DNA from: Ceratodon purpureus
Lineage: Eukaryota > Streptophyta > Bryopsida > Pseudoditrichales > Ditrichaceae
DNA length: 64,000 nucleotides
NCBI GenBank assembly: GCA_014871385.1
Contig: CM026425.1
Location: forward strand, 9,153,243-9,217,242
Direction: 5' to 3'
Numbering within the stretch: position 1 is the stretch's first letter; the number at the start of each line of letters is the position of its first letter. Both the position numbers and the translations under genes were made by a program. The notes beneath the pieces were generated by a model. The model was not told where the DNA came from and did not search any database. It was given only the letters and a program-made list of their open reading frames with translations. Shown piece after piece: positions 2,741 to 39,439 of the stretch.

Positions 2741-2741
2741 T

Positions 2742-2816: not shown

Positions 2817-3000
2817 TTTCCGGGCAGTATTAATAAATGAAACCAGTACAAATGGGCCAAAGCCTAGCCCGCCCCTTGCAGGGTAGGTCAAGTCCGAAGA
2901 CCAAAAATCCTTTGTCCCCAAGCAAGGTCTGGGCAGATCGCAAGGCACCCTACAAAACCAACTACCACCGAGGTAGCGAGAAGGGGAAGCCGCCATCCAT

Positions 3001-3331: not shown

Positions 3332-3440
3332 AATGGTTGGTCAGAATTGAAAAGAGGGACCAAGGGCCTCAACCCACAAACCGGGTCCATGCGTACGTCC
3401 CCTCAAATCCTAAGGAGATATGCAATAACCATGTAAAGTC

Positions 3441-6157: not shown

Positions 6158-6599
6158 AGGGGAAAAATGGGGTCTCCAATGGGCCTTGTAAGACAGCCCG
6201 GATTAGGTGAGCTTCCTGCCCGCTGACACTTCTCTGCGAAATCTCATTGGTGGATATCTTGCCCGCTGACAACAAAATTCGCCCCGCTGACAACAGGATT
6301 TGCCCCGCTGACAACAGGATCCGCTACTGTCCAATGGAGTGACAGCAGTGGGCACACGCTCGTTGACAGTGTCATTACTGCTTGTATTGTCCAATGGGGT
6401 GACAGCAGTGGGCAACGCCTTCGCTGCAAGCGATTGGCTGGACCCCCCAAACGCCAACTGCTGGCACTGTTGGCACTGCTGGCACCATTTGGTGACCTGC
6501 TGGCACCATTGGTGCCAGCAGGTAAAGTGCACGGGCATGGCTAATTTTTCAGGCACGGATTCCGACCAAAGGCCCATTGGAGACCCCAATCTTCCCCTA
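6158..6599 (+). mobile_element. MITE, family A copy 1, inserted in the LINE
   Basis: A 442-bp element with ~31-bp terminal inverted repeats: it starts TAGGGGAAAAATGGGGTCTC and ends with the inverted partner GAGACCCCAATCTTCCCCTA. Inside are short repeats (CCGCTGACAACAGGAT twice, and GCTGGCACTG/CTGGCACCATTGGTGCCAGC) that can fold. It encodes no transposase. It separates the FADD part of the LINE reverse transcriptase from its post-RT region, so it arrived after the LINE. A target-site duplication could not be fixed with confidence (TAG on the left, TAA on the right). Confidence 0.85.
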
Positions 6600-8940
6600 A
6601 TGAAGTAGATTGTTGTCTCTCCCTCCCTGAGCCAGATTAAGCCAAGGTGAGTTCCTCACTCCTAATCCCTCCTTCTATTGGATACATAAATAGCCGTGGA
6701 TTTGCTCCATTTTATTTTGCTACCAGTTGCCTGGTAGAACAAATCTATCACTTTGAATGCTTTGTCCAGATTGGCCACCAATCCCTTCACATACATGTAT
6801 ATTTGTATCATCGGCAAAGAGCATTTGTCTTAGCAAGGATCCATCTAGTAGGTCTAACCCCTCAACCCAATACTCTAGGGCGTTGACCATATAGGAGAGA
6901 ACGTCCGCGATGAAGAGGAATAGGTAGGGAGCGAAAGGGCACCCATGTCTGCCCTCCTCTCCAATTTAAACTTTGGCCTTGGAACTCCATTGACTAACAC
7001 TATTGCGTCCGTCCCTTCCTAGAGGGTCGTGGTCCACTTAATCTACTCTTCACTGAATCCCGCTTTATAAAGTACCTTCTGTAGGAAACTCTAATTTACT
7101 CTATCATAGGCTTTTTCAAAGTCTAAAAGAAAAATTACAATGTCTTGGTTACTTTCTATTGCCCATTCCATTGCCTTAAACCCTTGAAATACGTTATCCA
7201 AGATGCATCAATTCTTAACAAATGTTGTTTGTTTTGGACATATCCATCTTGGATTCTTGGCAAATGAGGTTGGAGGCGGTTTGCGACAATTCGCGCGCAC
7301 AGCTTGTACATTGAAGGCAAGACTGAGATTGGCTGATAACTGTTTATGTTGTTTCTCGGTCTTGGCTTTGGAATTAATGAGATTAACCTCTGGTTTAGAG
7401 TACCTTCCAACTCTCCCTCCTCCAATGAGTTGGCAATGAAGGTGGTGACATCATCTGAGACCTCGTCCTACAAGGTCTTAAACAATTCAAATGGGATGCC
7501 TTCTCTGCTCGCCACCTTATTCTTCGGTAAGTCGTCCACCGTTGTCTTGACCTCTTCCTTTGTGAAAAGAGCAAGGAGTTCATTTTCCTGTAGTGTGACC
7601 AAGACTAGCACACTTCGTAGACATATCTCTACGGCCTCTATCTCTTCCTCTACCGTAGATTCCCGTTTGTATAGCGCTTGATAGAAGTCTTGGATGTACT
7701 TAATAGTGATCCCTTCATGCAATGAGATAGCTCTTCTGTCGTCCATAAGCTCCTTTATTGAGTTGTTGGTCTTCTCTGCTTTGTGAAATTCAAAGAATTT
7801 CCTACTACACCAGTCCCTTAACAGTTGTCTACTCAGCTGCAGTTGCATTCTTAGATGCCTCTGGTTTCTCCATTCTGAATCCTTCAACAATTGCTTGCGC
7901 TCTGTTCATTTCCCCCCAAGCTTCCAAATTAGTCCAACCCCGCTTGAATGGCAAGTTCTGCTTCCATTATGTGGCTGAATTGCTTGTCATACTCAATCCT
8001 CCTTCTCTCTTGCGCAATTGCACCGTATTATCGTTGTATTCTTGATTTGCTCCAACGCAGGTGCCATCCTTCTTCTAGCTCTGAGTGGTTGGGGGCTCTC
8101 TCTTTTTATGCACTTTCTCTACCCTCCGACAACCAGATCCACTGTTCCGGTATCTTGCATGAAGGCTTTATTGAACAGAGAACGCATGGCGTTCTTCTTC
8201 CTGGCATTTTCAATCTATGAAACTACCAGAGAGTAGTCTGAGAGGTGAGCCATTGTGGACCAGATTCCATGTTTTCTACCTCTATCTTAATGTCTCACGT
8301 CTACGTAATAGCGGTCAATTCAAAACCATCTTGGATTGAGATTCTGCCAACTCCAAGTAAAGGTTTTACTACCTATCTAACGGAACTCGTTTGCAAGAAA
8401 GGCGTAAAAAATACCTAGGTTCATTGCAAACCGGGTCCACGTTCCGAGCTCTCTCCTCCCCATGCGGGGACCTGTGTAGCTCGAGCTTTGATTTGTGTCA
8501 TTTACTGTTATATTAAAGTCAACGCAGGCTATCCACTCGACTGTCGGGAAGTCATAGTGAACTAGTGACTCCCAAAATATTGCCCTCATCCGTAGCGTAT
8601 TGGGCGCGTAAAGATTTAATATCCCAACAGTCCAGCCATTAATGTCCAGTAGCACATATTGTGCACGTGCTTCAATAATGGCCCCACTTTCTAGAACTCT
8701 CGGTGTCAACTGTTGGGACAGAATGATACTTGCCCCTCCTTTAAAGCGCCTTGAGGCTGTTGAAAATATTGCGTTATTCCAAAAGCAAAATCTGCCCTTG
8801 AAATGTGTTTGTTGAGTTTGTATAAGACACTCCTTATGTGGTGTTCCTGAAAGAGGATTACATGGGGTTGTAGGATGGTCTTGCTGTAAAAATCTCTCAG
8901 GTCATATCTAAACCAATTGAGCTAGATGTTCCCGCCCCCA

Positions 8941-10978
8941 TGATTGTGGATCGCCTCCTTGCTGACGTGGCATCTTTGCTAGAATAGTAAATTCTCCAGT
9001 ACTTGTCAAATCCTCGCAACCATGTAAAATTGTTGATTTTTTAGTGAACTTTTGTAATTCTATTAAAGTCAATTAAAAAAATGAAGAAGTAAAACTTGTC
9101 CAACATATTGTACATAATGTTAAAAGTCTAGTAAACATTTTAGGTTTTTTTACAATTTTTTAAATCATCTAGGTTTTGAAAAAAAAAAGTTATTTTAGAT
9201 TGAGAATGTACCATTTTGTGACTTCTATCTGAACGTAAAACTACTACAAATAATATGAAGGTACATTAATAGAATAATTTTTTAGATTTTGTGATAATTT
9301 AAAAATCTTATAACGGATAGAAAAATACACTTGGCATCACACGCAACAAGGGTTTGCAATTGGAAATAGACCACCCCAAGATGTGATTTACATTAAAAAT
9401 TGATTAAAAGTAGTGTCTCAATTCAAAATAAGTTGCAAGTTATTTTAGAAATTAATTGATATTATTGTTTAAAGGTAACTTTTTAACTTTTATGCTTTAT
9501 TATTCTATAAATGTATCATTTTTTACTATTTTTCTTTTTTCATGTTTAGAAAACATTGATCATGAGATATTTCTTTTCCTTCCACCATAAAATATGCAAT
9601 TGTTCAAAACAATTTCAATTAAAATATCATCACTAAACAATCAAACAATTTGTTTACAAATATTTCAAAATCATCGTCCTTATCATCTATGACTTCTCAT
9701 CCTATCAATACCTTTTAATTTAACTCTCTACTAATCCAAATTCTCTCCTTCACCAACATGCTGGCTCCAAATTTTTCCATGGCCTTGTTGGGGATGGGTA
9801 CCACCAGTGTGTGGGCAGATCCTCCTCCAGCGGAACCCTTATTTCTCATGTACCATCTTCAACTCCATTCAAATACCACCAAACTTGCATTTTATCATGA
9901 TGGCACACCGGATCATCCTGACAGGCCCCTTTTACCTCATATCATGAAGCAGCACACAAATGATGCACCAACTCAAGCAGATAACTTAGAGAGGTCACAG
10001 AATCATGCTGTCACCTGTGTGAACAAAATCCACCTCAACTGCCATTGACCGGGTGTTCAGCTGGTGTACCGGTGAAGACAACCACAGTCATTAAAAAAAA
10101 AGGGCAACACTATCCATGCCAATTACAGATTTCTACCCCCAGATATAGCCCACTGGTACATTAAATATATGTTTTTCACTTGGATATATATATATATACA
10201 CATATATGTACCTTCCCTAGTCACGACAACCCGGAAGGGATCACCTCAAAGAATCCGGAGCGAGAGATGAGAGGAAACATCACTCACTCGGGAGAATTCG
10301 AGAGGAATCTGAGTCTCGAAGTTGCAGCCAGGACAAAAGACGGATGAATCCCGCAATGCACATCACCTCGGCCTGACAGTGAACGATGATCTAACTTGAA
10401 CTTTTTCTCAACCAGTATCGAAAATCCAGTCGATGATCACTCACTGATCACTCACTCAATCGTCGGCCATCACTCACCACGCCGTCTTGTAGTGGAGTGT
10501 AGCTCCCCAGCCAACCTCAATTATTTCACTCTCCTGTTCAATTATGAATCATTGCCCAACTTACACCCCTCCAGGCTCCGTCCAGGTCACAAGTCAACCG
10601 AACCCCACCCCAATCCGGGCCAAATCCCTGCCACCATGGCACATCGATCGTCCCACTCCAGCTATTGCTTTTTGGGATGACTCCATTCAATCCGTGACCC
10701 CGAGAAAGTGAGAGAGAGCTCAGTCCAGCCCGCCTCGGAAGCTGCTCCATGATCCTCAATATTGGTTCAACTGATCCAATCTAGAACTAAATTAAGTTGG
10801 CTGGCTCTTGGACGAAAGTATCATGTAGCATAAGGCACCTCGGCTTTCCTGTTGAATGACGGTGATGCGAATTGATGGGTTTATTTATGATGGACTGGCG
10901 CTGTGGTTAATGTGTCTGATGAGCCTGATGTGCATCAGTACTGTAGATTGAAGTACGTGGGTTTGGAGGGTACAATTA
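8941..10978. other. AT-rich spacer grading into the upstream region of the TPR gene
   Basis: 9000-9750 is very AT-rich with no coding signal. A TA microsatellite lies near 10184-10208. Short open frames at 9758-10048 and 10396-10680 have no recognisable domain and are probably chance. Confidence 0.45.
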
Positions 10979-11675
10979 GGCTTTAGGGTTTAGGATTTTC
11001 AGTTTTAATGGCTTAAATATTGAGTCTAGTAGTTTCGACGCACTTTGACTGGGTCCCGCTGTGTTGTCGCCATCGCTAGCAGCTCTGTCGATAGCATCAG
11101 TTGTAGTGAGCTCGCTTTTGGTTGGCTTTTAGGCCAGATCATGGTGGTGGGCTGATCAGCTAGGGAGAGGGTAGTACGTGCGTGGTGCCGGTACTCATGA
11201 TCAATCGCTCTCTCATTGATTACTAGAAACGGTGGGCGGGTGGAGAGCGTGATGATCATCAGTTTGTCCGCTTGTGAGCTCCGTGGACCATGATGGTCTG
11301 CTTCAAAAGGCCTACTTCCGGCGCCAGTGTACAGTGTCAGCCCGCGATCAGCAGTTGAATGAATTTCTGCGTGTCATGGTGGTGGAGTCGGTGTTCGTGA
11401 TCATGTCTGGATTCTAGCCTGCATGCTCCAGACACGAATTGCCACTGTTCTGGTCTGCAGGACTTTCAATCAGTAGCGTATCTTGGTTGTGACGTTGAGT
11501 GATCAGATTTTTGTCTGTGTGGACTTTGTCGTCGTCAGTGTAGAGGTTTATAGAATTCGCGTGTGCACATTGTGGTGGAGTTTTGAGTTTTGGATTTTTG
11601 GGAGTTCTTGAGTGCAATTAGGATTGTGCTCTGTTTTTTGGAGAAGGTTATGTAAGTTGGGGTGGGAGAGGAAGG
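10979..11675 (+). promoter_or_regulatory. Presumed 5' leader of the TPR gene, with telo-box-like motif
   Basis: AGGCTTTAGGGTTTAGG near 10979 resembles the plant telo-box (AAACCCTA on the other strand), found upstream of many plant housekeeping genes. The following ~680 bases up to the ATG at 11676 are richer in G and C than the spacer and have no long frame on the plus strand, as expected for a 5' leader. The transcription start was not located. Confidence 0.35.
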
Positions 11676-14248
11676 ATGCCTCCGCATGCGACGTCGAATT
11701 TTGGAGGGATGCCGGGGAAGGTGATGAAGAGTATGCCGCCGGTGACGCCGCCCAGAGAGGATTCATCTGAGGCGGCGGGAACTGGGGCTAAGAGAGCGGC
11801 ATGGAAATCGTCTCGGAAGAGCTCATCGAAGGTGATGCCCAAGGAGCCGTCACCGAAGCAAGCTGCTTCGGCGGATTTGAAGACGTTACGGAAGTCCAAG
11901 TCTGGTGCGTTGATTCCCACTAAGGAGCCGCTCAAGTCGTGTCTGAAGAAGCCCTCCGATGGCTCGCAGAAGCTCTCGGTGGCGTCGTCGCCGCCGCTCT
12001 CGCATCGTAGCGAGTGTACGCAGTTGTCAATGCGCAGCGAGTTCACGGAGAGTGTGTTCGAGCACAGTGAGCTCCACGACGGCGACGGCGAGTGCACCCC
12101 GGGCACGCCCAAGAGCGTCGAATTCGCGTCCCAGCACCAGGAAATTGCGCCGACGTGGTCCACGACACCAAGCGTCGCCGATGAGGTGCTGGATGGTGAG
12201 CACCCGTCTGCCGAGCACGAGCCTGTTGTCGCCGCCCCACGGCGTCGGGAGATTCCCGTAGCGTTCCTGGAGGCTTTTTCCCGCGACGAGGACTCTGTCG
12301 CCGACAGCCCCCACATGGGCCCCTACCTGATCAAGCTCGCCAAATCCCATGCCTCGGGGGAAAATCCTGTAAAAGCCTTGGAGTATTGCATTCGCGCCGT
12401 AAAATTTTACGAGCGACACTCGCAACGGGAGAATGTGCTCGACTTAGTGATCAGTTTGCACATCCTCGCCGCCCTACATTGCCATCTCGGGCAATACGAA
12501 GACGCCGTGACGCTCCTCCAGCGCTCGCTCACCATCCCCGACCTTGAAAATGGCGGCGAGGAGCATGCGCTGGCCTCTTTCAGCGGCCACATGCAGCTGG
12601 GCGACACCTTGAACGTAGTGGGCAAATTAGCACCAAGCCTGCAATCCTACCACCGAGCTCTCGACATTCAGAAATCCATTCTCGGAGAGTTTGACAGCCG
12701 CGTTGCCGAGACTTGTACCTACATTGCTGAAGCACATGTACAGGTTAGACACCCACATTTCTCCTTCGATGTCCATTGTCGTGCCATTTCATAATTCACC
12801 TCCATGCAATAACTCGGAACCCGGATTGCAGGCATTGGAATTTGCTGAAGCGAGGGAGCTTTGCGAGCACGCGTTAGTGATCCACACCGAGCATTGTGAA
12901 CCTGGGTCGGTTGACGAAGCTGCAGACCATCGCCTCCTGGCAATCATCTACAGCGCGCAAGGCGAGCATAGCAAAGCATTGGACTCGTTGGTGTATGCGA
13001 ATGATATCTACGTCAACTTCGATCTGCAGGTAGTACCCACTCTGTCTTAACAATCATGAAATTAGGGCTGCAAACAGGGATTCCGAATTGAAGATCTGAA
13101 CGTTGGCTGTTGTGGCAGCTTGATGTGGCCACTGGGAACCAGAGTATTGGCGACGAACTCCTGGCACTTGGACGGGACTCCGAAGCCTTGCAATGTTTCG
13201 GGAAATGTGTGGGTGACTTCAAGATGCTGAAAGGTGAGCACGACGCTCTTGTGGCGTCAGCGCACACAAGCCTTGCGGATCTTTTCCTTCGCACAAATAA
13301 TCCCAGAGAGGCCAAGGTCCACTGCCAGAATGCGCTTCAAATTTACGCCAAAAAGGGAGTGGGTCACGTTCCTAGTGATGTGGCTTTCGGGTTGGTGAAC
13401 ATTGCAAGCATTCTTGAGCAGTTGAACGAGAAAGAGACGGCTCTTCTTCTACTTCAGCGGGCCTACAACATCCAAGACAGGATTCCAGGTTCCGAACGCC
13501 TGCTGCCTCTCAGTTTTGTGGTTTCGCAAACTGTTGGATGAGTGAGAAGTGACAGGATCATTGCAGAAGTTCTTATTCGTGACGGGTGTTCGTTGTTTGT
13601 GTGAGCAGGTCAGCAATCGACATTAGCAGGACTAGAGGCTCAGATTGGGATTCTTCAAAACATGCTGAGGCAGTTCAAGCTGGCCTTGCAATCTTTCGAA
13701 AATGCTGTTGCGAAAATGAAGAGTGGGACACTCAGGAACTCCCCTCTGTTGGGGCTGGTGATAAACCAGATGGGCATTACTGCCATAGAGCTCGGTGATA
13801 TACCACAAGCAGCGTGTTATTTCGAGGAAGCCAAATCTGTTATGGAGAGTACTGCTGGGCCACAACATCTGGATACACTAGATGTGTGCAATAATCTTGC
13901 TTGCACCTACGCCAACCTTGGACGGTATGATATTCCACCCCAGTTCTTTTCTCAACTTTTTCATGGAACCGATTTTGGATTTTGTTCTGATGAGGAGGAT
14001 TTTTGAATTGCCTGGGGATAACAATTAGTGGGAGACGAATCTGCAGGACTGAGGAAGCTCGGGAGCTGCTGGAGGAAGTGGTGAGAATGAAGGAGGAGAA
14101 GCTCGGCGCAGTGCATCCAGATGTTGGCGAAGACCGGGCACGCCTTCAAGTATTGCTCTCTGAGGGGCAGACGACGACGTACAAAAGGTCACGTAAGCTT
14201 GTAGAAATGCTCACGTCCGCGAGGAAAGCTTTCCACACGTCGAAGTAA
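11676..14248 (+). CDS. Kinesin light chain-related TPR protein (KLCR-like), 5 exons
   Basis: The predicted protein has 717 residues. Exons: 11676-12743, 12832-13029, 13119-13488, 13609-13924 and 14047-14248; every junction is GT-AG and keeps frame. Residues 1-200 are a Ser/Pro/Lys-rich, probably disordered leader. From about residue 208 (MGPYLIKLAKSHASG) to ~690 the protein is a run of ~42-residue tetratricopeptide repeats of the kinesin-light-chain type, with helix pairs such as LGQYEDAVTLLQRSL and LNVVGKLAPSLQSYHRAL. It lacks the heptad region that binds the kinesin heavy chain in animals. Plant relatives (KLCR/CMU proteins) bind microtubules and steady cellulose synthase tracks, so a cytosolic scaffold role at microtubules is likely by family. 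The ATG is the first in frame after the leader. It converges with the ABC transporter gene. Confidence 0.9.
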
Positions 14249-14710: not shown

Positions 14711-17573
14711 TTACTTGTCATGCCCCTTTATCCGGTTCAAGAAAAAGTATGCCATGAGTCTATATCCAACAAGCATTATGGCCAAAGCCATCGCAGACAG
14801 GCCCAACTTGTCAAGCCCCACGTTGGCCACCGCGGGATAGTCCACAACTCTGCACAGTCCTGAGGGATTTGTAGCGCAAGGATATGTCTGATCCGTAGAG
14901 TACTGCGCAGCAAGCTGGAGCTTATAGCTGAAGTAACTCACCGAAAGATACTTTATCCAACGAATCCAAACGGGAGTGTTCTGGATGTAATAACCCCCAG
15001 CCAACAAGAGGGTGAGCATGATCACCGACGCCAGAGTCGTTGCTTTTTTCACATCCATCAGAGCCGCCCCCAACGTTAACCCAAGCCCCTGCACACACCA
15101 ATCCGGGTACAGAGTCAATTCACATTCCATTGTTCTTGATTCATAAGATGATGGATTATTATCAAAAACATAGGTGGGAATGATTGTAAGAGGATATGCG
15201 GGCGAAGGTACATACCTGGGATACAAGCACGGTGTAAAGAATGACCAGCAAAGTGAGGAGGAAGCCGACGAAAGTGGGCTTTAATCCACCCATCCAGTAG
15301 ACGATGGTAACGAAGATGGTGGGCAGAATGAGCTCCAGAGGCAGATCCGCCACCGTTCGCGCCATGAAGTAGGCGCTCAGTCGGTACATGCCCGAAGCTC
15401 TCTCCTTGATTAGCATAGCACGTTCTTGTGGGAAGGTGAAGATGGCAGAGAAGACAGGGAAGAAGCCCCAGAATGTGGTGAAGAAAAACAGCAGCCCCAC
15501 CTGTCATTCCGATTGCTGTGAATTAGTCCATATTCTAGTATTGATCAATTGTAAATGAAATCATACTAAGAAATTCAGTGGAATGGACTAACACTTATAA
15601 TTGGTTCTCACCTGATCTTGCACTTGTGAGACGGACGACTTCCACCACAACAAGCCGGCAATGATAGAGATGGCGATGACCTGCCCTATTTTCAAAGGCG
15701 AATATGCTTCGTGACGGCGCTCCTTCCATCCTCGTTCCAATAACACGTTAAACTGCCCTCCCCATGAAGTTGACCACTTCTGCGTCGCTGCTGCCATTGT
15801 TTCAACACGAGAAACAGGAATTATGTAAGAGAATGTCATTGAAATCATTACCCAAGAATAGAAAAGAGACATTCAAACCACATTCGAAGAATTCCATCCC
15901 GAGGTTTCATTCTTTGTCAGCTCTATCGAAGTGTCTCACAGAAAAATAAGTTATGCAAGTCACAATGATTGGCTCAATTAACATAATTTTAAAACAGGTT
16001 TTATAAACCCCATACCTTTGTCATGTGAATTTATTGCAGAGGCAGGAGTGTTGGCCACTTCAGAGTCTACTTTGTCCGCCAAGGTAGTCTTGTAAGCCTC
16101 GATCAATTTCAATCGCATCGCTTTAGGGTCGTCATTCTGTTTCACCAACTTCCGATTCCCTTCCACTCCAATCTTACCTCCCTCGCCCTCAATTAGCTTG
16201 TCAGGCGTCACTCCTACAAACATCAGTCAACACAAGAGAATGCGAATTAGGCAGCTGTCAACTTCAATCAAATCCATTGCATTCACAGATTTTCGAAAGA
16301 ACTAATTTCGGGGCTCAATTTCAGAAAACCAACTTCGATGAAAAGCGCGACGTACCATTGGCAAGATCAAGGAGAAAATCCGCGGGATTCATTGGAAACG
16401 GAGGCGAGAACTGAACGGACTCGAAGTATTTCATCGCTTCGTGCGCGTCGCCGTAGTAAAGCAAGTGACCTTCAGAAAGAAGAATCATCTTATCGAACAT
16501 GTGGTACACTGTACTGGAAGGCTGATGAATCGTGGTGACGATGGTCTTCCCACTGTTTGCCAAATCCTGCAATGTCTTAATTATCCTCAACGCTGTTGTG
16601 GAGTCCAACCCCGACGTCGGCTCATCCAAGAAGAGAAGGCTGGGATCCACGAGCATCTCATGGCCAATACTTACACGCTTCCGCTCTCCTCCAGACACTC
16701 CTCGCTTGAATGGCCCCCCAATAATCGTGTCCTTGCATCTCTCCAATCCAAGCTCTATAATAATGGCCTCTGCCCGCTTCACCTGAAGATCAGAACACAG
16801 AAAATCTTGTAAGCCAAATTCTAAATCCAAATCCCGAAGTACGATTCAACATGTACAAACAAAACCCAAAACGTATTACATCTTCACCTTCAAAACTATG
16901 ACAAGACGTGAGCATTGTGAGGCAATTTACCTTATCCTCACGCGTGTATGTATCCGGTAACCGCAACCTGGCGGCGTAAACGAGGGTCTCCTTCACGGTC
17001 AGATTCGCAAACAGGACATCGTCCTGGGTGACGAACCCCGTGCGCCTCTTGATGAATTTGGAGTGCGGTTCATCATTGTAGAGCACCGTGCCTTCCACTT
17101 TGTCGCTCTTGAGGCGACTCCCGAGAACCTTGAGAAGGGTCGTTTTCCCGCTGCCAGATGGCCCCAACATGACGAGCATCTCCCCTGGGCGCACCACTCC
17201 CGAGACGCCATGCAGAATTTCCTTTGTCTTCGCCTTGGGCGTCTTCAAGTTGGACTTGAACTTTTTCAAGTTAAGCCATTGTTTTGGCTGCTTCAACTCG
17301 ACGCTGTAGACAATATTGGAAAACTGCAACCAACACAATCAACATAGGATAATCAGTCGCCATTAACAAACCTGTCAATGCTTGTCCTCCAGAAATAGCA
17401 AGGAAAACAGAATTCCGAAAATTTTCGAGTCATTCTACCTTCAATGTTATGGGCACGGATGGTAGATGAACAGGTGCGTCAAGGGCGTTTGCATCCGGAG
17501 GTGCGCCTTTCAGTGCATGAACTCCGACTTCCAAGTCCGGTGGACCGTCGTCCGTGCTCATACGAGGACCCAT
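14711..17573 (-). CDS. ABCG (WBC) half-size ABC transporter, 7 exons
   Basis: The predicted protein has 664 residues, the usual length for a plant ABCG half transporter. Exons in coding order: 17573-17439, 17323-16931, 16782-16356, 16213-16016, 15790-15612, 15500-15216 and 15088-14711; all introns are GT-AG and in frame. The nucleotide-binding domain comes first, as in all ABCG proteins: Walker [10 protein letters not shown] (residues ~99-107), signature VSGGERKR (~205-212), Walker [14 protein letters not shown] (~225-237) and switch His in TTIHQPS (~262). The membrane domain follows from ~residue 405, starting near [17 protein letters not shown], with further hydrophobic helices to the C terminus. 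It must dimerise to work. Plant relatives export lipids, cutin precursors, hormones or terpenoids; the substrate cannot be told here. It is closest in style to the ABCG14/21/22/25 group, a tentative placement. Confidence 0.95.
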
Positions 17574-21594: not shown

Positions 21595-22015
21595 ATATAA
21601 ATTAGTATGTCATGTCGTTGATCTTGATGCTTTTATTCATACGATTCACATCACTAGAATTTAGAATTAGATAGTTTACTATGATTACAGAGAAAGGTAG
21701 ACTAAGTAGAATAATTTACAAAATAGTGGGTGTTCTCTTTGAGCATGTTTCCCAATTCTCTACTATATCTCTCATTGTTTTGTGTAGATTAAGGTAATAC
21801 ATCATCTAATTTATCTTGTAAATATACTAAAATGATAATACTAACGGCGAAAATAAACTGTCTTTCATTTATCTTCACAATGTCTATTCACAACACTCTT
21901 TTATCATATACATTTTTAAAAGAATTCTATAACATCTTCTTCTAACATGTTTTCTATAAAAGGATTTTAGAAGGAAAAATAAAGAAACTATGTTTTATTT
22001 TTTAAACAAATTGAA
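21595..22015. other. AT-rich spacer
   Basis: No feature recognised between the Harbinger-like element and the first copy of the RNase H/endonuclease retroelement. Confidence 0.4.
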
Positions 22016-23930
22016 TTCATTTCGTTTACACTGATTCAAAGAGAAAAAATATTATCCATCTTGATCAAGTCACACAAGCCTCTATGGTACAGTTGCTCTC
22101 AAATCGCTCACAACCAATCACAATATATAAAGTAAGAGCACATGTCAACATTGATGGTAATGAATAAGCAGATAAACTAGGAAAAGATGGTGTATATCTG
22201 TCTTATAGAAAACCTACACATTCATCCGAAAACATCCATGATACACCATACTACTACCAAAAAGAAAAATGGCCTTCCATATTTGATACTCCAGAGAAAG
22301 GCCTTTCCAGATCTTTAGAACTTTTTAATAAATATGATCAAAAAATTAACCTTCAAACAATGGATATACAAATCTCTAATATTTTCAAATGGACAAAAAA
22401 GTGCAAACATTGACAAAGAACTTTTTAGTGAATTTTAAAACAATCCTACTATCATCTGTAAATAAAAGTCATGCTTCATCAAATTCCGCATCAAACTTAC
22501 ATGGGCCATGCTTTAAAACAAAACTCCTTTGGTAGGCAAATACATCCTTCCATTTCTTATCTTATATGTAACCCATATGATCCTAATACATTGCTACATG
22601 AACTAGTAATAAACTCACACTCCGAATTTCCCACAAGTAATAAACTCACACTCTTCCTCGTTGATTTTTCAATTATCCACCTACACATTTAGGCAATGTA
22701 ATCACTTATGTTATAAAAACATATCAACACAATGTGAGAAACATTAGGAGAAATGTGGGGTCTCCAAAAGGCTTTATAAGACAGCCCGAAGGTAGGTGAA
22801 CTTGCTGCCCACGCATGCCTCTCTCAGTAATCTCATTGGTGGATATTGTGCCCGCTAACAACGTCAGGAGCTACAGTGTTGACAGCGTCATTACTGCTCG
22901 TACTGTGCAATGGGGTGACAGCAGTGGCACACGCCGTCGCTCGCAGCGATTGGCTAGACTTACGAAATTCACTGTTGGCAATACGTGGCACCATTGGTGC
23001 CAGCAGATAAAGTGCACGGGCTGGGCCAAATTTTTAGGCACGTGGGAAACCCAAAGGCCTTTTGAAGACCCCAAATTTTCCCTAGGCTACTGGTTTTATC
23101 CAAAAAATCTTGGTGCTACACACTCATACATGGAGTCACCTTCAATAATAGTCCACAAAAGGACATTGTTTTTAACTTCTTACTCCTTTGCACATGTGGA
23201 ACATAAAGATGCCATTGTAATTCTAGATTTAGATGAGATACACTTTCTGTTAAAGGACCACCTTATCAAAGTGAACCACCTACAAATATTAAATAGAATC
23301 TTACCATGCAATTCTTTGAATTCACACACTATGACGATAAATTTTCTACATAAACCTTTGAAGCAAAAATCAACATATACAGACCATTGGTTAAAATCAT
23401 TTCAGCAAGAGGTTAGAAAATAGATTCTTTAATTGTCATCACAGCTACCACTAGAGACGCTGCGTACATTTCATCAATGAAACTACATAATGAAAAATTA
23501 ATATATCTAAACCAACCATAAGAAATACTTTCAAAAAAAATTATACTATTGCCATTAAATATGCCATGTCTATCTTTCTCTACTAAAGAAGACAAAAAAA
23601 TCACCAACCTTTGAATCAAATGGAATATCTACTTTAGTTCAAACAAAAATAAAATAAAATAAAATTGAATAGCTAGAGCTACTCTATTCAATGTTAGCTA
23701 ATAGTAACATTGTCTCAAGTTACACATGACATGTGGTGGTGTGCTAGTTGACACAATTCTTTTCCCGCCTACAATTCTTCACTAAGTAGTGTTAAGCCAC
23801 ACATCCGCTCACTCGAATTCATCAAAGTTCTAACCCAAATCAAATATCTAAGATAAATACTCACCACAATCAACAAGAAGCTCATGGCTTGGCAATTGCT
23901 TGGCAAGGAAAACTAGCCTTATACCACAAA
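22016..23930 (+). mobile_element. Decayed RNase H/endonuclease non-LTR element, copy A
   Basis: Homologous to the better preserved copy at 25195-27870. It begins in the middle of the RNase H domain (QPITIYKVRAHVNIDGNE near 22115, with ADKL after a stop), continues through the linker and zinc-finger zone (TYMGHALKQNSFGRQ, LICNPYDPNTLLHE at ~22495-22610), and resumes after an inserted MITE (22745-23084) with the endonuclease domain (SVKGPPYQSEPP, QFFEFTHYDDKFS at ~23240-23345). The tail (IAIKYAMSIFL near 23550) and 3' UTR (to ~23930) match copy B. Many stops and frameshifts show it is older than copy B. Upstream domains are missing. Confidence 0.8.
22745..23084 (+). mobile_element. MITE, family A copy 2, inserted in retroelement copy A
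   Basis: A 340-bp relative of the element at 6158-6599: left end TAGGAGAAATGTGGGGTCTC, right end GAAGACCCCAAATTTTCCCTA. It shares the inner blocks TAAGACAGCCC, CTCATTGGTGGATAT, CAATGGGGTGACAGCAGTGG and CACCATTGGTGCCAGCAG. TAG occurs at both edges. It splits the zinc-finger and endonuclease parts of the retroelement. An open frame through it (22815-23423) is accidental. Confidence 0.85.
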
Positions 23931-25000: not shown

Positions 25001-25194
25001 GATCATGTGCCAATTTCTCACAATTGAGAAATTTAAATATAAGAAAATCTTAATTCAGATCCCCTTTCAAAATGATGATATTTATTTTAGGTAAAGAGTA
25101 GAAAATAACTCTAGGTTTAATCCAAATTTGTTGGAGGGAATTCAAAAACTCAATTCAATTGTTTATTTAGTCTATAGTTGAGACTCCAACAAAT
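25001..25194. other. Spacer before retroelement copy B
   Basis: AT-rich; no recognised feature. The junction near 25195 probably marks the 5' truncation of the retroelement. Confidence 0.4.
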
Positions 25195-25226
25195 GTACCC
25201 TTCACACACAAAATAACCAAACCCAC

Positions 25227-25860
25227 ATCTACAACGACACAGGCAAATATATCACTACCATTTCTACCACAAGGATTACATGGCTATGGCAACAATACCA
25301 CACCAACAAAAACCAAAACCACAAAATCATACCTACCATACAAAACTTTGAAACAGAAGTCGCTTGGTTATACCAAAGATACACACACAAAAATAGCAAA
25401 ACCAAAACAAAACAAACACCACATCACTCCCTCCCTGCTACAATCCTAGACACACTTATCACAACATTCAACATAACACACTCATACTTCTCTTCACCAA
25501 TCACATGCCCCATCACAATCACCGTAATTCTACTCACAATTCCCAGGTGACAAAATTTTTGGCTCCTTAGGCAACGCCTTTGAATATAAATGGAAAGGCA
25601 TTGGATATGCTCACCCTAATGACGCTGTAACAGCACAACAAACTATCCATTGGGCTAGATTAGCAGCAAAAAATGATCCTACCACCATCACAATCTTAGC
25701 ACTCCCAGATTCTAGTTGGTACCAAAATTTATCACCCCACATAAGCCCCTTCCCAGACACCCATGTTTAATCCACTTTGCCGCTGACACCATCACATATA
25801 ATGAACCAACATTACCTCTCGAAAAACCAACCACAAAACCATTAGCACTACATATATGGT
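25227..25860 (+). pseudogene. Methyltransferase-like (PCIF1-type) segment of the retroelement
   Basis: Three overlapping frames read in turn as one protein. The first has FETEVAWLYQRY, then ITHSYFSSPITCP. The second has DKIFGSLGNAFEYKWKGIGY, AIHWARLAAK-like TIHWARLAAKNDP and ITILALPDSSWYQN. The third has LIHFAADTITYNEPT. The series aromatic-SSP-C-P, then a loop, then ITILALPDSxWY resembles the PCIF1 family of adenosine methyltransferases (ASPLNC...FIVFIPEW). The catalytic NPPF motif of active PCIF1 enzymes is not visible; GSLGNAF stands where it would be expected. So the fold is plausible, but activity is doubtful even in the parent element. The assignment rests on motif memory only. Confidence 0.45.
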
Positions 25861-26099
25861 GCATTCACCATCAAAATAGCAACATTACTAACTACAACCA
25901 AATTAATACAATCAATACAACTTTAGACAACCTCCACATTCCACAATACTACACACAACTTATACCACCAACACCACCACACACACAAGTCAACAAAAAT
26001 AAAAAATGGACCACATTAACCTACCCCCCATACCAAACCTTACACAATCTTAACACACCACCACTACCAAATTATAACACCCCCACTAAACCAAAATTT

Positions 26100-27023
26100 T
26101 TACCACATCACAGTTATTATACAGACGGCTCCTTTTTACCTCCACAACGAGCAGCAGACGACCACTGGAAAAAGGAAAAAGCCGGCTATGGAATCTATAA
26201 CCCATCCAAACTTGAAATCCAAATATCCAAAAGATTACCTGGTCTCCAAACCTGCTTTCGTGCATAACTCATGGCTATACATGAAACACTCTCTTTATTA
26301 ACAACTATCTACCAACACGAGCCCGCACATATCTTCACAGACTGTCTTAATTGCATCCATGTTCTTAACACACAACTCAAACATCCAACCCAACAAAATA
26401 ACCACGCCGACAAAACCATACTACAAGAAATGGTTACGATGCTTAAAAAACGAACACAACCCACCACAATATACAAAGTCAAAGCACACTCTAACATCAA
26501 CGGCAACGAACAAGCAGATAAACTAGCAAAAGCTGGCACTATGAAAAGGAACTATCAAAAGGCCGCAAAACCACACGAATTTGCACACACCATGCCGTAC
26601 TACTTCCACAAAGACATCTGGCCCGGTCCACAGTACAAAAGACCAGACAAAGGACCAGTCCGCAATTTAGACGAATATATCAAAAAATATGATCGTGAAA
26701 ATAACCTTACAGAATTAGCGCTAAAATTTCCAAATATCAACAAATGGACCACAAACTCCACTATCGATAACATCTTATCAAATGACTTTTGGAAAAACCC
26801 AGATATCACAGATTCTCAAAAAACAAGCATACTCAAATTTAGAACCGGTCAATATATGGGAAACGCTCGCAAACAACTAATTTTTGGTATACAAAGATTC
26901 CCTACAAAAACCTGCTCCATCTGCAATACACAAGATGCCGATACCTGGCTCCATGTACTATTACTATGCCAACACCACCACATTCACGCACTCCGAACAA
27001 AACGACATAACAAGGCTGTATAG
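26100..27023 (+). pseudogene. RNase H domain plus zinc finger of the retroelement
   Basis: Type-I RNase H is clear: YYTDGSF (first Asp, ~26117), EKAGYGIYNP, RLPGLQTCFRA, then LMAIHETL, HIFTDCLN (third acidic residue) and VKAHSNINGNEQADKLAKAG (the His/Asp end). TAA at 26266-26268 falls exactly where the second catalytic residue (Glu of RAELMAIHE) belongs, so one base change both stops the frame and removes the active-site Glu. After the stop the frame stays open to TAG at 27021, including YMGNARKQLIFG and the finger CSICNTQDADTWLHVLLLC. Confidence 0.85.
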
Positions 27024-27573
27024 GAATTAAAAAAATTATTACTTTCTTCCCATAAATCACGATGCTACACCCTTATGAATGCCGGAACATTTAACAACAG
27101 TCCACAAGAAAATACAGTACCTTCTTGGTTGCTCTCCTGCACATGTCTGCAAAATAGATGCACCTGTAATGCTAGATTTAAACCAGATCTACTATGCGTC
27201 AAAGGCCTCCCTTACCAGAGCCCACCTCCCCCCCACCCCGACAACAAATTCACCATACAATTTATCGAATTCACTTACACAAATGACAGATTTTCACCTG
27301 AAGCAATTGGCCTCAAAATTACAAAATACCTACCTCTAATACACAACATCACTAACCACAGATGGAAAGTGGACCCTATCCTAATTATCACTGCCGGAGC
27401 CAGAGGCACCACACACATCCCTCCAATGCAACAACTTCAAAAACATTCAACATTTGCGAAAACTCTATAAAACGCACATTTAAAGCAATCAATACAATTG
27501 CCATACAACATGCAGGCTCCATCCTACTACATAAACGCCGAATAGAAAATAACCAACCACTCCCAACAGAATA
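27024..27573 (+). pseudogene. Restriction-like endonuclease domain of the retroelement
   Basis: This continues in frame after the TAG at 27021-27023 (probably a former Trp codon). A Cys pair zone (CTCLQNRCTC) precedes the motif KPDLLCVKGLP, then IQFIEFTYTNDRF, then K-x4-PLI and ITAGARGTTHIP. The spacing PD...E-x-T...K is that of the PD-(D/E)XK endonucleases found at the C terminus of R2-like and related LINEs. A frameshift near 27470 joins to TFKAINTIAIQHAGSILLHK, ending at 27573. The domain would nick target DNA to prime reverse transcription. Confidence 0.65.
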
Positions 27574-27599
27574 AAGCATTCAAAAAACACAAGTCACAA

Positions 27600-27870
27600 A
27601 GCCACACAAAAGAGAGAGTAGTGGTCACAACCACTGCTAGCCACTCTTTATATATATACTAGCTCAACTTGTCTCAAAGGGATAGAAAGCGGTTGGTTGA
27701 GACAACTTTCCTGCCATGCTTACACACTAGCAGCACCAAGCCACTTGTATCACACTACCGCTCAAACGAGCCCAACAAGGTTCGAACCCGGACCAATTTT
27801 TATGAGATACAACACCTTTTTCCCAACCAACCAAAGATCTCATGACTTGGTGACAATACTTTCCATAAAA
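27600..27870. repeat. Conserved 3' UTR of the retroelement family, with tRNA-like box B
   Basis: Aligns with 23690-23925, the same place after the endonuclease domain in copy A: GTTGAGACAACTTTCCTGCC against GTTGACACAATTCTTTTCCC, then AGCCAC and CATGACTTGG/CATGGCTTGG. It contains GGTTCGAACCC at 27779-27789, a canonical polymerase III box B, next to TATCTCATAAAA on the minus strand. The 3' UTR could carry a tRNA-like fold, or a SINE could share this tail. Confidence 0.55.
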
Positions 27871-30800
27871 ATTCAATTATACACGTGCTCCCCACATAAT
27901 AAAATTTTTACATAAATCCTAAGTTACTTGTTCTTTAAGTTACTATAGTGTCCATTCTCGAAAGGGGAGAGTAGTTTTGTCTCAATAACCCCCTGTCCTA
28001 TGGCCACCGGGTCATTTGACATTACGAACGGACACTTTATTCACGCCGGCCCCTTAAACGGGTTGGTGTTTCTATCTATCTATCTGTATAGTTGATTGAT
28101 ATAGAACACAAATTGCAACCCTTTACTAAAGAGGCCACTTCAATGAGATGCTCTATTATTTAGTTTTCTAATATTTGTAAATCCAACCTTCCAGTAACCC
28201 AAAGAGTCATCTATGACCGGACCTCCATTATTTCTTCTTCAATTATTTATATTCATGATTGAAATACATATCTCAATACAAGAATTTGGAGTCCAAAAAA
28301 TGTACTTATCCACTTCATAGGATAACTGGTCGAGTTTATGAATAATATTTTTGTACTTTTATCATATCATACATGATAGTGGGTGAAAAGTCAAAGATTG
28401 GTATCTAATTTTTCAACTATTATATAATCAAAAAGAAAAAGGAACTTCTCAATATATCCCCTAATTCTGCTGTGTAGATGCTCATTGCTGACCCTGCCCC
28501 ACAATTAAGAATGGATGCTAAAAACTTTACTATGGTTTTCATTGAGCTTCCAGCTTCTGCAAATGTTCCTCACTCACCCATTTTTTCATACCAAGCAAAC
28601 ATTGCATTGTGATGTTGATACCACTTGACTCTCGAAGGGAATCACATGCTCTACCATGTGGCATCACATTCAGTCATCAAATCAGATGAGACTAGTGCAG
28701 ACTGAAGGGAAGCTCATTCTATCTTTCAAGCTGAGCACAGAAGTGGTGGCTGGTCATGCATTATTTGTTGTGATTTGAAAGCAGTCATGATTTATAATGT
28801 ACTGTTACATAGAGAACCAGCACTGACATAGTCAACCTTTTTAGAATACACAACATTTGTGCCCCCGTGATAAACCTTGTCCTCGTCTCAATGACGAGGG
28901 CCCCACCAAGGGCTCCCATTGCAAGGGCAAAAGGCCCCTATAAATACTTTTTTGATGAAAAAAAATTAAAACTTAAAATACTTTGCAAGAATGATGGTAA
29001 TAAGACTACTAAAGAAAGATAAAAAAAAATCAAGATTATCTAATTTATTCATGAAAATGATTTATTATAGATTCCTAAAATTTTGAAACTAAAGTTTCTG
29101 ATTATATTTTGGGAATCCAAACTTCTATGATCTTCTTCAAAAGAATCTCTTAAGTACAGTGCGGTACCAATCAAAATGTCGTTTTTGAATTTGCAGTGAG
29201 AAAAATGCCAACTTTGAAAGCCTCCGGAGAGCTCAAATATTGATATTTTACCACAAAAAAATTACCAAAGAATCGTCTTTAAGTTAATTATATGTATGCC
29301 ATTTTTCAAGGCCAAAAGATTCACCAAAACAAAGTTATTCAAAATCTACCACGGATGACATGTTTTCATTACTGCCAACTTTGACAGCCTCCCAAAGATG
29401 ATTTTTGTTTTTTTCGCCAAGAAATCCTTGGAACGAAATCCCCTTTATATTGATAACATATGATAGAAAGTTCAAGGCCAAAAGACTACTACCAAGTTAG
29501 ATATTAACAATCTACCAAAATGTGTACTTGTTCGAAACAATTCCGGAAGAAACCATTTCATTGAAACCAGCAGTTGAGAAATTGTCCATCTACCATAAAA
29601 ATTGGCATGAATGTTTTTAACATAAAGATCATGTTGTCCAAAAATTTAAATTATCGGTTATGGGTGTGTATACCTTAAGTGTGGCTCATAGCCCATATTG
29701 AGGAGGGGGTCGGAGGGGTGGGGCAAATCTTTGTTCCTATAAATTAAATTTGAATGAGGTCCATTCTTGATCTCTAAAGGACCTCTTGAGTGTTGTTCAA
29801 GTGTGAATGCCCAAAATTAAGCAAAAAAAAAAAATCAAAAAAAAATTGTGGGATCTGAAACTGAGAAGGCCAGAAAAATAGATTGAACAAAGTCTTGCAT
29901 CAAAGCCACATTCTTTGGAGAGAAATAAAGAGACCCATGGTTTTTGTTTGTGCAAATATAGACTAAGGTAAAGAAACCAAAAACTGTGAATGCCCTTAAG
30001 GATGTGGTAGAGTTGCTCAAAACTAGCACGGCCGGCTAGGTTTTGGTGGACCAGCTTGGTTTTGCCGTGTAATGTCAAGTTGTGGTTTTTTAGTAGTCTT
30101 ACGTCCAATTTTCTGTGATACCGGTTAACGATTTTAGAACACCACACGTTTGGTTCATGAAGAGTCAAGCATACAAGAAGGAGGTTTGACAAACTTCCCA
30201 CTTTCAGAAATTCTTCGCAATTATTTACAGGGAATAAAAATACGAAACAAACTGCAATTTTCATCATTTCTTCTTCTTCATTTCAGAAAAAATTAGAGAA
30301 TTACTATCTCCGCCCTTTATGGTCAAATCACCTTATTTTCATGATTTTTGGTTTCTCTACCTAAACAGTCATAGCAGGAACTCTGCATACCTTAGCGCAT
30401 TCTTTGACATTCCCTCCAAATATGTTGTCCTCCAATAAACTCACTGTCCGCTTTAACCCCTAAAGTTCTGAGGGTATTTTTCATCAAAACTGCCTCAAAA
30501 CAGCCCCTCTTCAAAAGTAAGGAGGATTTTGCAAACTTGGGGTCTTAATTAGTACATCTAACCGTAAGATCTTGTAGCTAACTTTTATGTCTACATGTCC
30601 ACCAAAACTCACACAGTCATTCCTCACCAATTTTTTTTCATAGCATTCAAAGTTAAAAAACAAGGTTTTTTTCCCTGCGCAAAAAGGAGACAGCAGAGTT
30701 TTGAAGGCCCAAAACACCATTTTTTAAAGTAGATATGGAATGCGTCTCTCCATATTCATCTTCCTAAGTGAGTTAGGTACATGTCCAAAAAATATCATAT

Positions 30801-34554: not shown

Positions 34555-35213
34555 GTCCCAGAGATTCAAGCCTTCAAAGTGCATGATTCTGTAGATTTGT
34601 TAATTTCGTCACGTCGCATGGATCGACAAGTTGTTCTGAAATTCGTGAATCACTGCGCTAGTACTACAGATATCGCTGCAGCAGCGCTGGGACGCTTGAG
34701 GAAGCTTGAGCAATGGCGCCCATAGTTGTTGATCATCGCGCACAGCCGGGAATTGTTGCAGACTCTGAGGCAATTTGTTTGCCATATTGCTGCTGCATCC
34801 ACGGCGCGGAGGCAGCGTCGACGACGTTAACTCGTCTGAGTCCTCAATATTGTCCTTTGACTGATCAATCAGCTTCTGCTTCTTGTGCTTCAGCTTGTGC
34901 GGCTGGTGTTTGGACTCCGAAATATATGTGGAGAGAAGCTTTCTCTTACAAGTAGAAGTCTTACTGTGTACTTCATGTGCAGCTGCCTGATCTTGATCAG
35001 CTTGATCAGCTTGATCAGGCTGAGGCTGGTGCTGGTGCTGCTTTGCCTTCTTGCCACGGTCAGCATGCATACGGCAAGGAAGCCTGAGGAGGAGGAGACC
35101 CTTGGCGGCCCCAAATTCCATGTCCTCCGGAATGAATGGCAACAATGCCCCTTTCGCAGGCACCATCTGTGATCCTTGCACTTGCAAAGCAGCCTGTGAC
35201 AACGTCCTGCCAT
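34555..35213 (-). pseudogene. Frameshifted copy of the small basic ORF family
   Basis: A direct repeat of the ORF at 38757-39353. An ATG at 35213 opens a frame with CKCKDHRWCLRKGH, but a frameshift then throws it out. The second half (PEDMEFGAAKGLLLLRLP, then STCKRKLLSTYISESKHQ) is read in another frame. Differences include the loss of a ~12-base block that codes YEHT in the other copy, and a CTTGATCAG tandem run coding for DQADQADQ. Function unknown. Confidence 0.5.
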
Positions 35214-36626
35214 TGCTTTGACTAAATAACTTTGACTAAATAACTTTGCTGATGGATCTAAATTTTTTTAATTGTGATCTCAACTTATTCAGATCAAAAA
35301 CATTTGCCTAGAACTACAGTCAGGGTTTTCTATTTGGTCGCGACGTGGCCCTCTTGCGTCATAATGTCGAGACGTCACGACGGTTTAGAGTCACGACCGG
35401 ACGTCCCATTCGGTCTTTATTGTGACGGCCCAACTCCTTAAGGCAACCTTTTCATTTTTACATTTTCATTTTTACATTACAAAACCTATTATAATTCTGT
35501 GTTTCAACAGAATATTCAACCAGGAAAAGAAGGAGAAACTCGATCAATAAACTATTGCACTACGAGGCACAACCCACCTTCCAATTATGAAGGGCCACAG
35601 CAGCATGATTGTAAAAAGCATTCAGGTACGTCTCTACACGGGTCTTGATATGAATGTACTTGGTTTCCAATCGCAAGGGCTTCAACTGCAAAAACCATGA
35701 CAGAGCTTACACTCCCGTCTGCAGCCACCATCCCTCAAATAGAATTTCAATGATCACTTTTTATTAAGTTGCACGTATAGGGATGGACCTTACTTATGAT
35801 GCCATCACATCTTTTACGTTCTGCATGGCGATTAAGATTAATCCTTGAGAGAAAATTGAGAAGTATTTATTCAAAGTAAGATTTAGAAGAAAAGAAACAC
35901 TGTAGAATAGCATGGATTTCTTCAATCCCAAGTAACATATCAAAGAAGTCTTGTTAATTTCTGTTGACCCCTAAAAATCCAAGCAATTTTTAAACCACCA
36001 AAATGATGTCACTCCATCAGCAGTCTTCAGACACAGCAATAGTACTACCCAGTGCCAACTGTCACAGAAGTTGAGCAACATGCAATCCACAAGGGTGGAA
36101 AATGAAACTACCCTCATGGCACTTGCATTGTTAAGAAAAATAATGGAAATCTTGCCACTACTGTACAGTATTGCACTTACTCACCCCTAAAACAAAAACA
36201 AACTGTATTCTCCTTGTCAGAAAGGCTGAGTACCACTGTTTGGTCTCTAAACTTCACCTATCTACCTCGCAAGCACTCAACTATACATCCCTTCAGGTGC
36301 TTCTCGCAGATCTGAGACCATAGAGTAAAAACCCTAAAAACACACAGCACCAGTGGGGCAGAATTAATTTCCTTTCTCTAGCGTCTATCCTAAACGAGTA
36401 ACTAAATAACAGTAAACCAAATAACTAAGTAAAATTGGGCCTGAGTTTTAAAACAAGGATGATTACATGCATAGGATTTGTGTTTCTTAGACAGACTAAA
36501 CAGAACTCTACACCCTAAACCACACCCAAAGATAGACTCCTCACAGGTCACAACCCTTCGACCATTTTTCTCATTGGATCTGACTTGTCCAGACCTATGA
36601 ATTCCTATGCAAAGAGAAAATCCTAC
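35214..36626. other. Spacer
   Basis: No coding or RNA gene recognised. 35330-35440 has CpG-rich phrases (GGTCGCGACGTGG, CGTCACGACGG) out of keeping with the AT-rich surroundings, of unknown meaning. Confidence 0.4.
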
Positions 36627-37439
36627 CTACACAAGACCATCACGGATCAAGCTACTCAGCTCATTGAGGCAATACAAAGCAGGTGGTCTGCTGTTGGGGT
36701 TTTGATCTAAGCAGCGATCCTGAAGCTTGATTAGCTGTGGTCCCAAACCCAATACTCCAGAAGTTTTGATTAAGTGTCCCAACCCCCAAATATCAACAGA
36801 ACAGCCGTGTCCTCCTGTACATGTCTCTGGAGCATGAGTTTCAGGGATCAGACTCATGTGCGCCTCTGATTGCGGCGAAGTACAGGCTTCATCAAAATCC
36901 AAAAGAAACCACAACTCGTCATGGTGCCCCATGTGTGACCACCGTATATCGCGATGCATGATAGACCTCTCGTGAAGCCAGACCAAAGCTTTGGCTACGC
37001 ATACCAAAGCCTTGACCAACTCTGACTCTGACCTAGCCCTTTGCACAACGAGGCTACAACGAGGCTAGAACACTATTGAGTGCCACCTGTCTGATCCATC
37101 CTGAAGGGAAGAACTCACAACCTGCTCAGAATTTGGGCATCCACTGATAAGTTTGTACACTTCCACCACACGGTCAAAAACTGCCCGGTCCAGATATAAC
37201 TTCTTCACTGAGCTGCCATACAGCCTCACCTCCTTCCCATTTCTCTCTAAAAGGACCTTGAATTCTGCCTCGACACTGAAGTCCTCACACAAAGAGCTTA
37301 AGCAAGGTATTAATCTGGCCACATTGAGACAGGCCAAGATGATTTTCACACGACCATCTACAGTCCCTAAATTGAATGTACCCAATTTTTTTATTTTCTT
37401 GGTTCCCTCCATATATAAAGCAACCAAAGTCACCATCAC
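36627..37439 (-). pseudogene. Protein kinase relic (single frame, one internal stop)
   Basis: One reading frame runs from 37439 to 36627 with a single TAG at 37067-37065. After the stop it has kinase subdomain VI (WLHERSIMHRDIRW), VII (LLDFDEA in place of DFG) and VIII-IX (HGCSVDIWGLGHL), ending with PNSRPPALYCLNEL near the close of a kinase fold. The catalytic-loop Asn of HRDxxxxN is His here, and the glycine loop and the VAIK lysine are not visible. The upstream part (GRVKIILACLNVARLI, KKLYLDRAVFDRV) resembles the region before the kinase in crinkler-type kinase proteins; that is inference. An 11-base tandem duplication lies beside the stop. Probably a pseudogene. A spliced or read-through gene cannot be excluded. 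Confidence 0.65.
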
Positions 37440-38756: not shown

Positions 38757-39353
38757 TCAAGCCTTAGACTGCTGCTGCAAGACCTGCAGATTTATAGCTT
38801 CGTTGATTTCGTCACGCATGGATCGACAAGCATGGAAATCGAGCGACAAGTTGGCCAATTCGTTCACCACTGCGCAGCTAGTACCAGTACTAGTACTCGG
38901 CAAAAATTGATTTGCCATATTGCTGCTGCATCCAGCTGGGCGCGGAGGCAGCGTGGACGACGTTAACAGCTGCTCGTTCTTCTGATCAATCAGCTTCTGC
39001 TTCTTGTGCCTCAGCTTGTGCCGCTGGTGTTTGGACTCTGAAATATATGTGGAGAGAAGCTTTCTCTTACAAGTAGAAGTCTTACTGTGTACTTGATGTG
39101 CAGCTGCCTGATCTTGATCAGCTTGATCTTGATGTTGATCAGCAGGCTGGTGCTTAATTGCCAGCTTGCCACCTGCAGGAAGCTTGAGGAGGCGGGGGCC
39201 TGCAGGAAGCCTGAGGAGGAGGAGACCCTTGGCGGCCCCAAATTCCCTGTCCTCCGGAATGGATGGCAACGTATGCTCATAGTGCCCCTTTCGCAGGCAC
39301 CATCTGTGATCCTCGCACTTGTGCAGCAAGTTCCAGGTGTAACGTCGTGCCAT
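38757..39353 (-). CDS. Small basic hypothetical protein (198 aa), intact copy
   Basis: An ATG at 39353-39351 opens an uninterrupted 198-codon frame. The N-terminal ~25 residues contain HKCEDHRWCLRKGH, a Cys/His-rich phrase that could bind metal. Next come PEDREFGAAKGLLLLRLP, a Gln/Asp-rich stretch, then a strongly basic section (STCKRKLLSTYISESKHQRHKL and following) and a Ser/Asn-rich tail. I recognise no family. The frame is broken in the copy at 34555-35213. This means either that only this copy is a gene, or that neither is and the frame is chance in a repeat. A GA-rich tract lies upstream at 39440-39490, as is common in plant 5' leaders. Confidence 0.35.
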   Translation of the reverse strand: MARRYTWNLLHKCEDHRWCLRKGHYEHTLPSIPEDREFGAAKGLLLLRLPAGPRLLKLPAGGKLAIKHQPADQHQDQADQDQAAAHQVHSKTSTCKRKLLSTYISESKHQRHKLRHKKQKLIDQKNEQLLTSSTLPPRPAGCSSNMANQFLPSTSTGTSCAVVNELANLSLDFHACRSMRDEINEAINLQVLQQQSKA

Positions 39354-39439
39354 TGCTGATCAATCAATTTGTGAAGAAAAATTGCCTGACAGTCACGAGA
39401 ATTGCGAGAGGAAATTTGGTGAAAATGGCAAGATGGGAG

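Follow-up and report, generated by a model that had tools for sequence, protein, structure and literature searches.

A PCIF1-like domain between reverse transcriptase and RNase H in a LINE family of Ceratodon purpureus

The window analyzed here, 64,000 nucleotides of the Ceratodon purpureus genome (C5:9153243-9217242), carries exons of ordinary host genes together with retroelement sequence. Pfam matches identified exons of a TPR protein (11622-12788, + strand), an ABC transporter (16796-17338, - strand), a protein kinase (36633-37064, - strand), a protein of the RSN1_7TM calcium-channel type (47521-48111, - strand), and one of the poly(A)/nucleotidyltransferase type (57409-58059, - strand). 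No Rfam match was found in the window at the gathering threshold. The feature that concerns us, copy A, is a dead, 5'-truncated, and frameshifted insert of a non-LTR retrotransposon of ~12.8 kb, and it occupies 25182-28086 on the + strand. A sequence-only reading of this DNA had located the element but placed its limits at 25195-27870, inside the measured ends. When copy A was searched against the genome (362,488,568 bases, 151 contigs), at least 44 matching stretches were recovered (the best 40 of 764 candidates were scored), and, besides copy A itself, at least 22 matches extend over almost the entire query, with identities of 80-94%. Comparison of these copies set the ends of copy A.

From 5' to 3', copy A contains a PCIF1-like methyltransferase domain with two frameshifts inside it (25275-25905), an RNase H domain (26112-26537), a CCHC zinc-finger motif read directly in the sequence (CSICNTQDADTWLHVLLLC, 26913-26969), a restriction-like endonuclease (RLE)-like region (27072-27440), and a 3' untranslated region (27575-28086) with (TATC)n at its end, which is common to other copies. 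The + strand is A+C-rich from ~25190 through the PCIF1-like part, the linker, RNase H, and the RLE region. The RLE-like piece gave zero matches to Pfam and PDB profiles, and its predicted identity comes from the motif KPD...IEFT...KY and its position after the CCHC finger. The coding region is split over frames 0, 1, and 0 of the + strand, where translation recovered all the peptides quoted in the sequence-only reading. Frameshifts lie near 25524-25545, 25750-25767, and ~27440, and there are two in-frame stops, a TAA at 26265-26267, which replaces the Glu codon of FRAELMA seen in the RNase H of other copies, and a TAG at 27021-27023.

We searched copy A against Pfam both in pieces and joined across its breaks. 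Unjoined, the piece at 25182-25547 matched PCIF1_WW at 4.4e-7 (30.1 bits, just below the cut-off of 31.1), that at 25528-25767 matched the same profile at 0.12, and that at 26268-27020 matched RNase_H at 1.4e-9; the piece at 25716-26264 gave a single unrelated, sub-threshold match. The read-through of 762 letters, with X at the breaks, matched PCIF1_WW at 1.6e-12, above the cut-off and over profile positions 6-104 of 176, and RNase_H at 1.9e-14. Its reversed-sequence control had zero Pfam matches, as did the part from the catalytic loop onward searched alone. In a single-sequence PDB search, the PCIF1-like part retrieved PCIF1 chains only (0.075 and 0.46), and the RNase H and RLE pieces retrieved none. 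Two AlphaFold models built without an alignment were uninformative (mean pLDDT 35.6 and 38.7). No relatives of the element were confirmed in viral contigs, genome contigs, or phages.

The insertion itself is well delimited. An exact 9-bp target-site duplication, TATAGTTGA, stands at 25173-25181 and again at 28087-28095 (+ strand). We fetched 20 of the 22 near-full-range copies with their upstream sequence, and at the 3' limit the sequence GGTGTTTCTATCT, followed by unrelated flank, is exact in copy A and in 18 of these 20; L012 has it with one change, and the L009 sequence stops short of it. The copies terminate with GGTGTTTCTATC(TATC)n and diverge beyond, their 3' flanks being unlike each other, and L014 is flanked by TGAGCTAAACAG and TGAGCTGAACAG, a target-site duplication of its own. 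The duplications, the (TATC)n tails, and the 5' truncation are marks of target-primed reverse transcription. The 5' truncation points of copy A (25182) and L014 (~6890, oriented) lie no more than ~5 bp apart, immediately ahead of the PCIF1-like domain, and this shared point may mark where the reverse transcriptase stops or where an internal RNA starts. A separate short element beginning there was rejected, given the distinct target-site duplications and the other copies that extend upstream. Near the 3' end of copy A (27780-27800), GGTTCGAACCCGG resembles by eye a tRNA T arm or Pol III B box.

Ten of the 20 fetched copies were extended further. All 20 had been selected as near-full-range matches, so the presence of the PCIF1-like part in them reflects that selection. 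One copy, L015, has an intact frame of 2966 codons (~2.9 kaa) that encodes, in this order, a 2A-like peptide, an APE endonuclease, a reverse transcriptase (RVT_1 3.2e-26, residues 1465-1729), the PCIF1-like domain (PCIF1_WW 6.7e-12, residues 2209-2309), an RNase H containing KAHSN (RNase_H 8.6e-16, residues 2482-2622), a CCHC finger with the motif of copy A, and the RLE-like end. The APE part matched Exo_endo_phos_2 (1e-5) and Exo_endo_phos (4.7e-5), both slightly below the curated cut-offs, and ExoIII at 0.0039 by profile, and it has the motifs WN, QETK, GDFN, and SDH. Pfam found no WW domain in the L015 frame. Thus, the proposal of the sequence-only reading, a retroelement frame in which a PCIF1-like segment precedes RNase H and a zinc finger and an RLE-like end follow it, was borne out in both copy A and L015, and the reverse transcriptase that it expected upstream in fuller copies is present. 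The 2A-like peptide (LSGDIETNPGPMP or near-identical) occurs in 11 of the 20 copies, several others being 5'-truncated; L027 has another NPGP stretch, GATEQNPGPMPK (~1252, oriented), ahead of the usual peptide. Similarity among L009, L010, and L015 runs in the extended L010 from ~985 to 13809 (~12.8 kb), and L009 has a first frame of 1108 aa, with no Pfam match, that overlaps the second frame at the latter's start. L016 and L017 are 99.4% identical in their shared 3' part, which indicates recent movement.

The PCIF1-like domain is abundant in this genome. A search with the PF12237 (PCIF1_WW) profile matched at least 150 places, all above the cut-off (150 of 277 candidates were scored), and none in 14 control genomes. 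Of the 150 scored matches, 26 lie within frames at least 2000 codons long, up to a maximum of 3312. The RLE-like region likewise has at least 150 genome places (150 of 1014 scored). Among the matches listed for contig C1, 11 of 20 RLE matches are preceded on the same strand, at a distance of 1.7-2.0 kb, by a listed PCIF1_WW match, nine have no such listed match, and five of 16 PCIF1_WW matches are without a listed RLE partner. With an animal PCIF1 fragment as query, 62 genome places matched (lowest E 1.7e-4, with 38% identity); none stands out as a host PCIF1 gene, which we therefore set aside as the source of the domain, although an intron-split gene could escape such a search.

Homology to PCIF1 extends into the catalytic half of the domain. 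A profile built from 12 domains retrieved just two sequences from the PDB, both PCIF1 (1.7e-5 and 1.5e-4), and the domain of L039, a member of another family, matched PCIF1_WW at 1.5e-14 over profile positions 15-157, indicating that the catalytic half is homologous too. Together with the matches of copy A and L015, this upholds the PCIF1-like assignment of the sequence-only reading. A putative green-algal retroelement protein has ANPEY at the NPPF site and matches PCIF1_WW at 1.5e-8; we treat it as a lead only. In copy A, the codons at 25609-25620, aligned to the ANPP(F) of PCIF1, encode AHPN, with the His codon at 25612-25614. The position of the catalytic Asn is His in all 34 sequences compared (20 of 20 loci, copy A, and sets of 8 of 8 and 5 of 5), many of them close relatives and hence not 34 independent cases. 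The variants at this site are AHPHN, AHPHT, AHPNN, AHPND, AHPPN, AHPPT, and AHPPD, with AHLHN in the broken L050, which also has a stop; some families thus keep both prolines, and no Phe follows them. Other PCIF1-like blocks, such as SSPxTC and FGSxG, are conserved, and many positions are invariant across families that are just 43-58% identical. The altered motif, as read from these alignments, speaks against cap-adenosine methylation by the domain. The sequence-only reading had suggested a decayed methyltransferase, and as a property of copy A this did not hold: its frameshifts are local, whereas the His is also found in intact frames and the domain is under purifying selection (see below), so the catalytic change is not decay of copy A.

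We next estimated selection by Nei-Gojobori dN/dS, averaged over pairs with dS > 0.1; post-insertion decay raises all the values. The PCIF1-like domain is under purifying selection, with a dN/dS of 0.17 (20 copies, 190 pairs). This constraint is weaker than that on the enzyme domains (APE 0.10, RT 0.08, RNase H 0.09, RLE 0.11), amounting to about twice the dN/dS of RT and RNase H; the CCHC region stands at 0.08. The linkers before and after the PCIF1-like domain have values of 0.22 and 0.37, and the region with the 2A peptide at its end gives 0.58, the latter from four copies only. In 60-codon steps over the 20 copies, dN/dS was 0.14-0.17 in the domain and 0.26-0.29 just downstream; the two steps just upstream (P0002 2080-2200) gave 0.16-0.17, and those before them 0.30. 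With these upstream steps equally constrained, the constraint is not sharply confined to the domain.

Among known elements, the closest counterpart is Dualen/RandI (Kojima and Fujiwara 2005, as cited in the portions consulted of PMC4640811 and PMC8226300). Dualen is the group described there as having both APE and RLE, and RNase H is reported for its clade (PMC4640811, same portions). RandI elements have 3' ends of (ATT)n or (CTATTT)n, according to the excerpted text of PMC3747384. The moss element similarly combines APE and a putative RLE-type domain with RT and RNase H, and it ends in a short tandem repeat, here (TATC)n, rather than poly(A). Dualen/RandI-like is the best reading of its probable affiliation. 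It differs in the PCIF1-like domain between RT and RNase H, none being mentioned in those portions of the Dualen/RandI descriptions. Utopia is an RLE-type LINE, with RNase H in its oomycete members; in the account drawn from PMC4640811, however, that RNase H lies upstream of RT and has Arg for His, whereas here it lies downstream and has His (KAHSN in L015). Utopia inserts into U2 snRNA genes; the 3' flanks of the fetched moss copies differ from one another, and no Rfam match was seen in the window.

The domain shares with the cap adenosine-N6 methyltransferase PCIF1/CAPAM a homologous domain that includes the surroundings of the catalytic loop, and differs from it in the His for Asn, the missing Phe, the absence of a Pfam match to a WW domain in the L015 frame, and its place inside a LINE. 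Retrotransposons with methyltransferases are already known: SymbioLINE-Dnmt, SymbioDIRS-Dnmt3, and KnitGypsy-Dnmt3 (PMC5890265, in the parts consulted), along with DIRS elements with a Dam-like methylase, resemble the moss element in encoding a methyltransferase-type domain under purifying selection. Their enzymes, however, are DNA cytosine or Dam-like methylases, and that of SymbioLINE is in ORF1, upstream of the RT frame. In the open-access literature, we found no description of a LINE that incorporates, between its RT and RNase H, a relative of the enzyme methylating RNA cap adenosine, nor any report linking PCIF1 to a retrotransposon-encoded protein; a description elsewhere is possible.

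The explanation we favor, at about even confidence, is a Dualen/RandI-like dual-endonuclease LINE that has retained its PCIF1-type domain, which is probably non-catalytic and would bind RNA. The domain would have lost methyl transfer while keeping its fold. During retrotransposition, APE, RLE, or both would nick the DNA, RT would copy the element RNA, and RNase H would then remove that RNA; the PCIF1 fold, situated between RT and RNase H, may hold the element RNA or the RNA:DNA hybrid for both. METTL14, which has a degenerate motif, serves METTL3, and by analogy the PCIF1-type domain could play much the same role.

The main rival, which we judge somewhat unlikely, is that the domain works as an adenine methyltransferase by means of a variant catalytic loop (AHPP/AHPH), modifying the element RNA (cap or internal) or the cDNA as it forms, either for stability or as a way to evade silencing. 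Such an enzyme would account for the purifying selection, the retention of SSPxTC, FGSxG, and similar blocks, and the two prolines kept in some families; moreover, ssRNA and RNA/DNA hybrids are the best substrates listed for PCIF1 (PMC10544176, in the sections consulted), and the retrotransposons cited above set a precedent for carrying other methyltransferases. Against it stands the catalytic site itself, with His for Asn in every sequence and no Phe after the prolines, since N553 and F556 (NPPF) mutants serve as the standard inactive PCIF1 (PMC10544176, same sections). A passenger role, in which what is left of a captured PCIF1 acts as a folded linker without a function of its own, is quite improbable. 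The lost catalytic motif would suit a passenger, as would a constraint that falls below that of the enzyme domains and does not exceed that of the adjoining upstream sequence, but a dN/dS of 0.17 over 190 pairs, the many positions invariant between such divergent families, and at least 150 genome matches argue otherwise. Chance similarity, or a host PCIF1 pseudogene adjoining a retroelement, might be entertained from copy A alone, broken and covering only part of the profile, but is refuted by the single intact frame of L015 spanning RT, the PCIF1-like domain, and RNase H and by the L039 match, the reversed control being negative, and we consider it vanishingly improbable.

A broader and more tentative proposition, possible but short of probable, sees the PCIF1-type domain as an ancient component of green-lineage dual-endonuclease LINEs that has so far escaped notice. 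On this view, it would have turned into a pseudo-methyltransferase in this plant (AHPP for NPPF), providing a platform for RNA or RNA:DNA between RT and RNase H, while more catalytic versions may persist in other branches. With this family, it becomes possible to test whether a methyltransferase fold serves LINEs for marking their own RNA or only for holding it. It also calls for caution with PCIF1_WW annotations in plant genomes, which can be transposons.

The window holds further repeat-like sequence. Endonuclease-like and RT-like frames at 7474-8901 (- strand) look by eye like another LINE, with zero Pfam matches at 0.001. Similar open frames at 34612-35235 and 38760-39359 (- strand) share VHSKTSTCKRKLLSTYISESKHQ and represent a local duplicate or a repeat. 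An older relative of the element, copy B, lies at 22009-23900 on the + strand (3' limit approximate) and comprises part of RNase H, together with the RLE region, identified by tblastn (37% and 47% identity) and by alignment of the 3' region. It is split by an insert at ~22739-23084, which recurs at 6154-6599 and 3193-3338 with 70-79% identity and belongs to an old repeat family.
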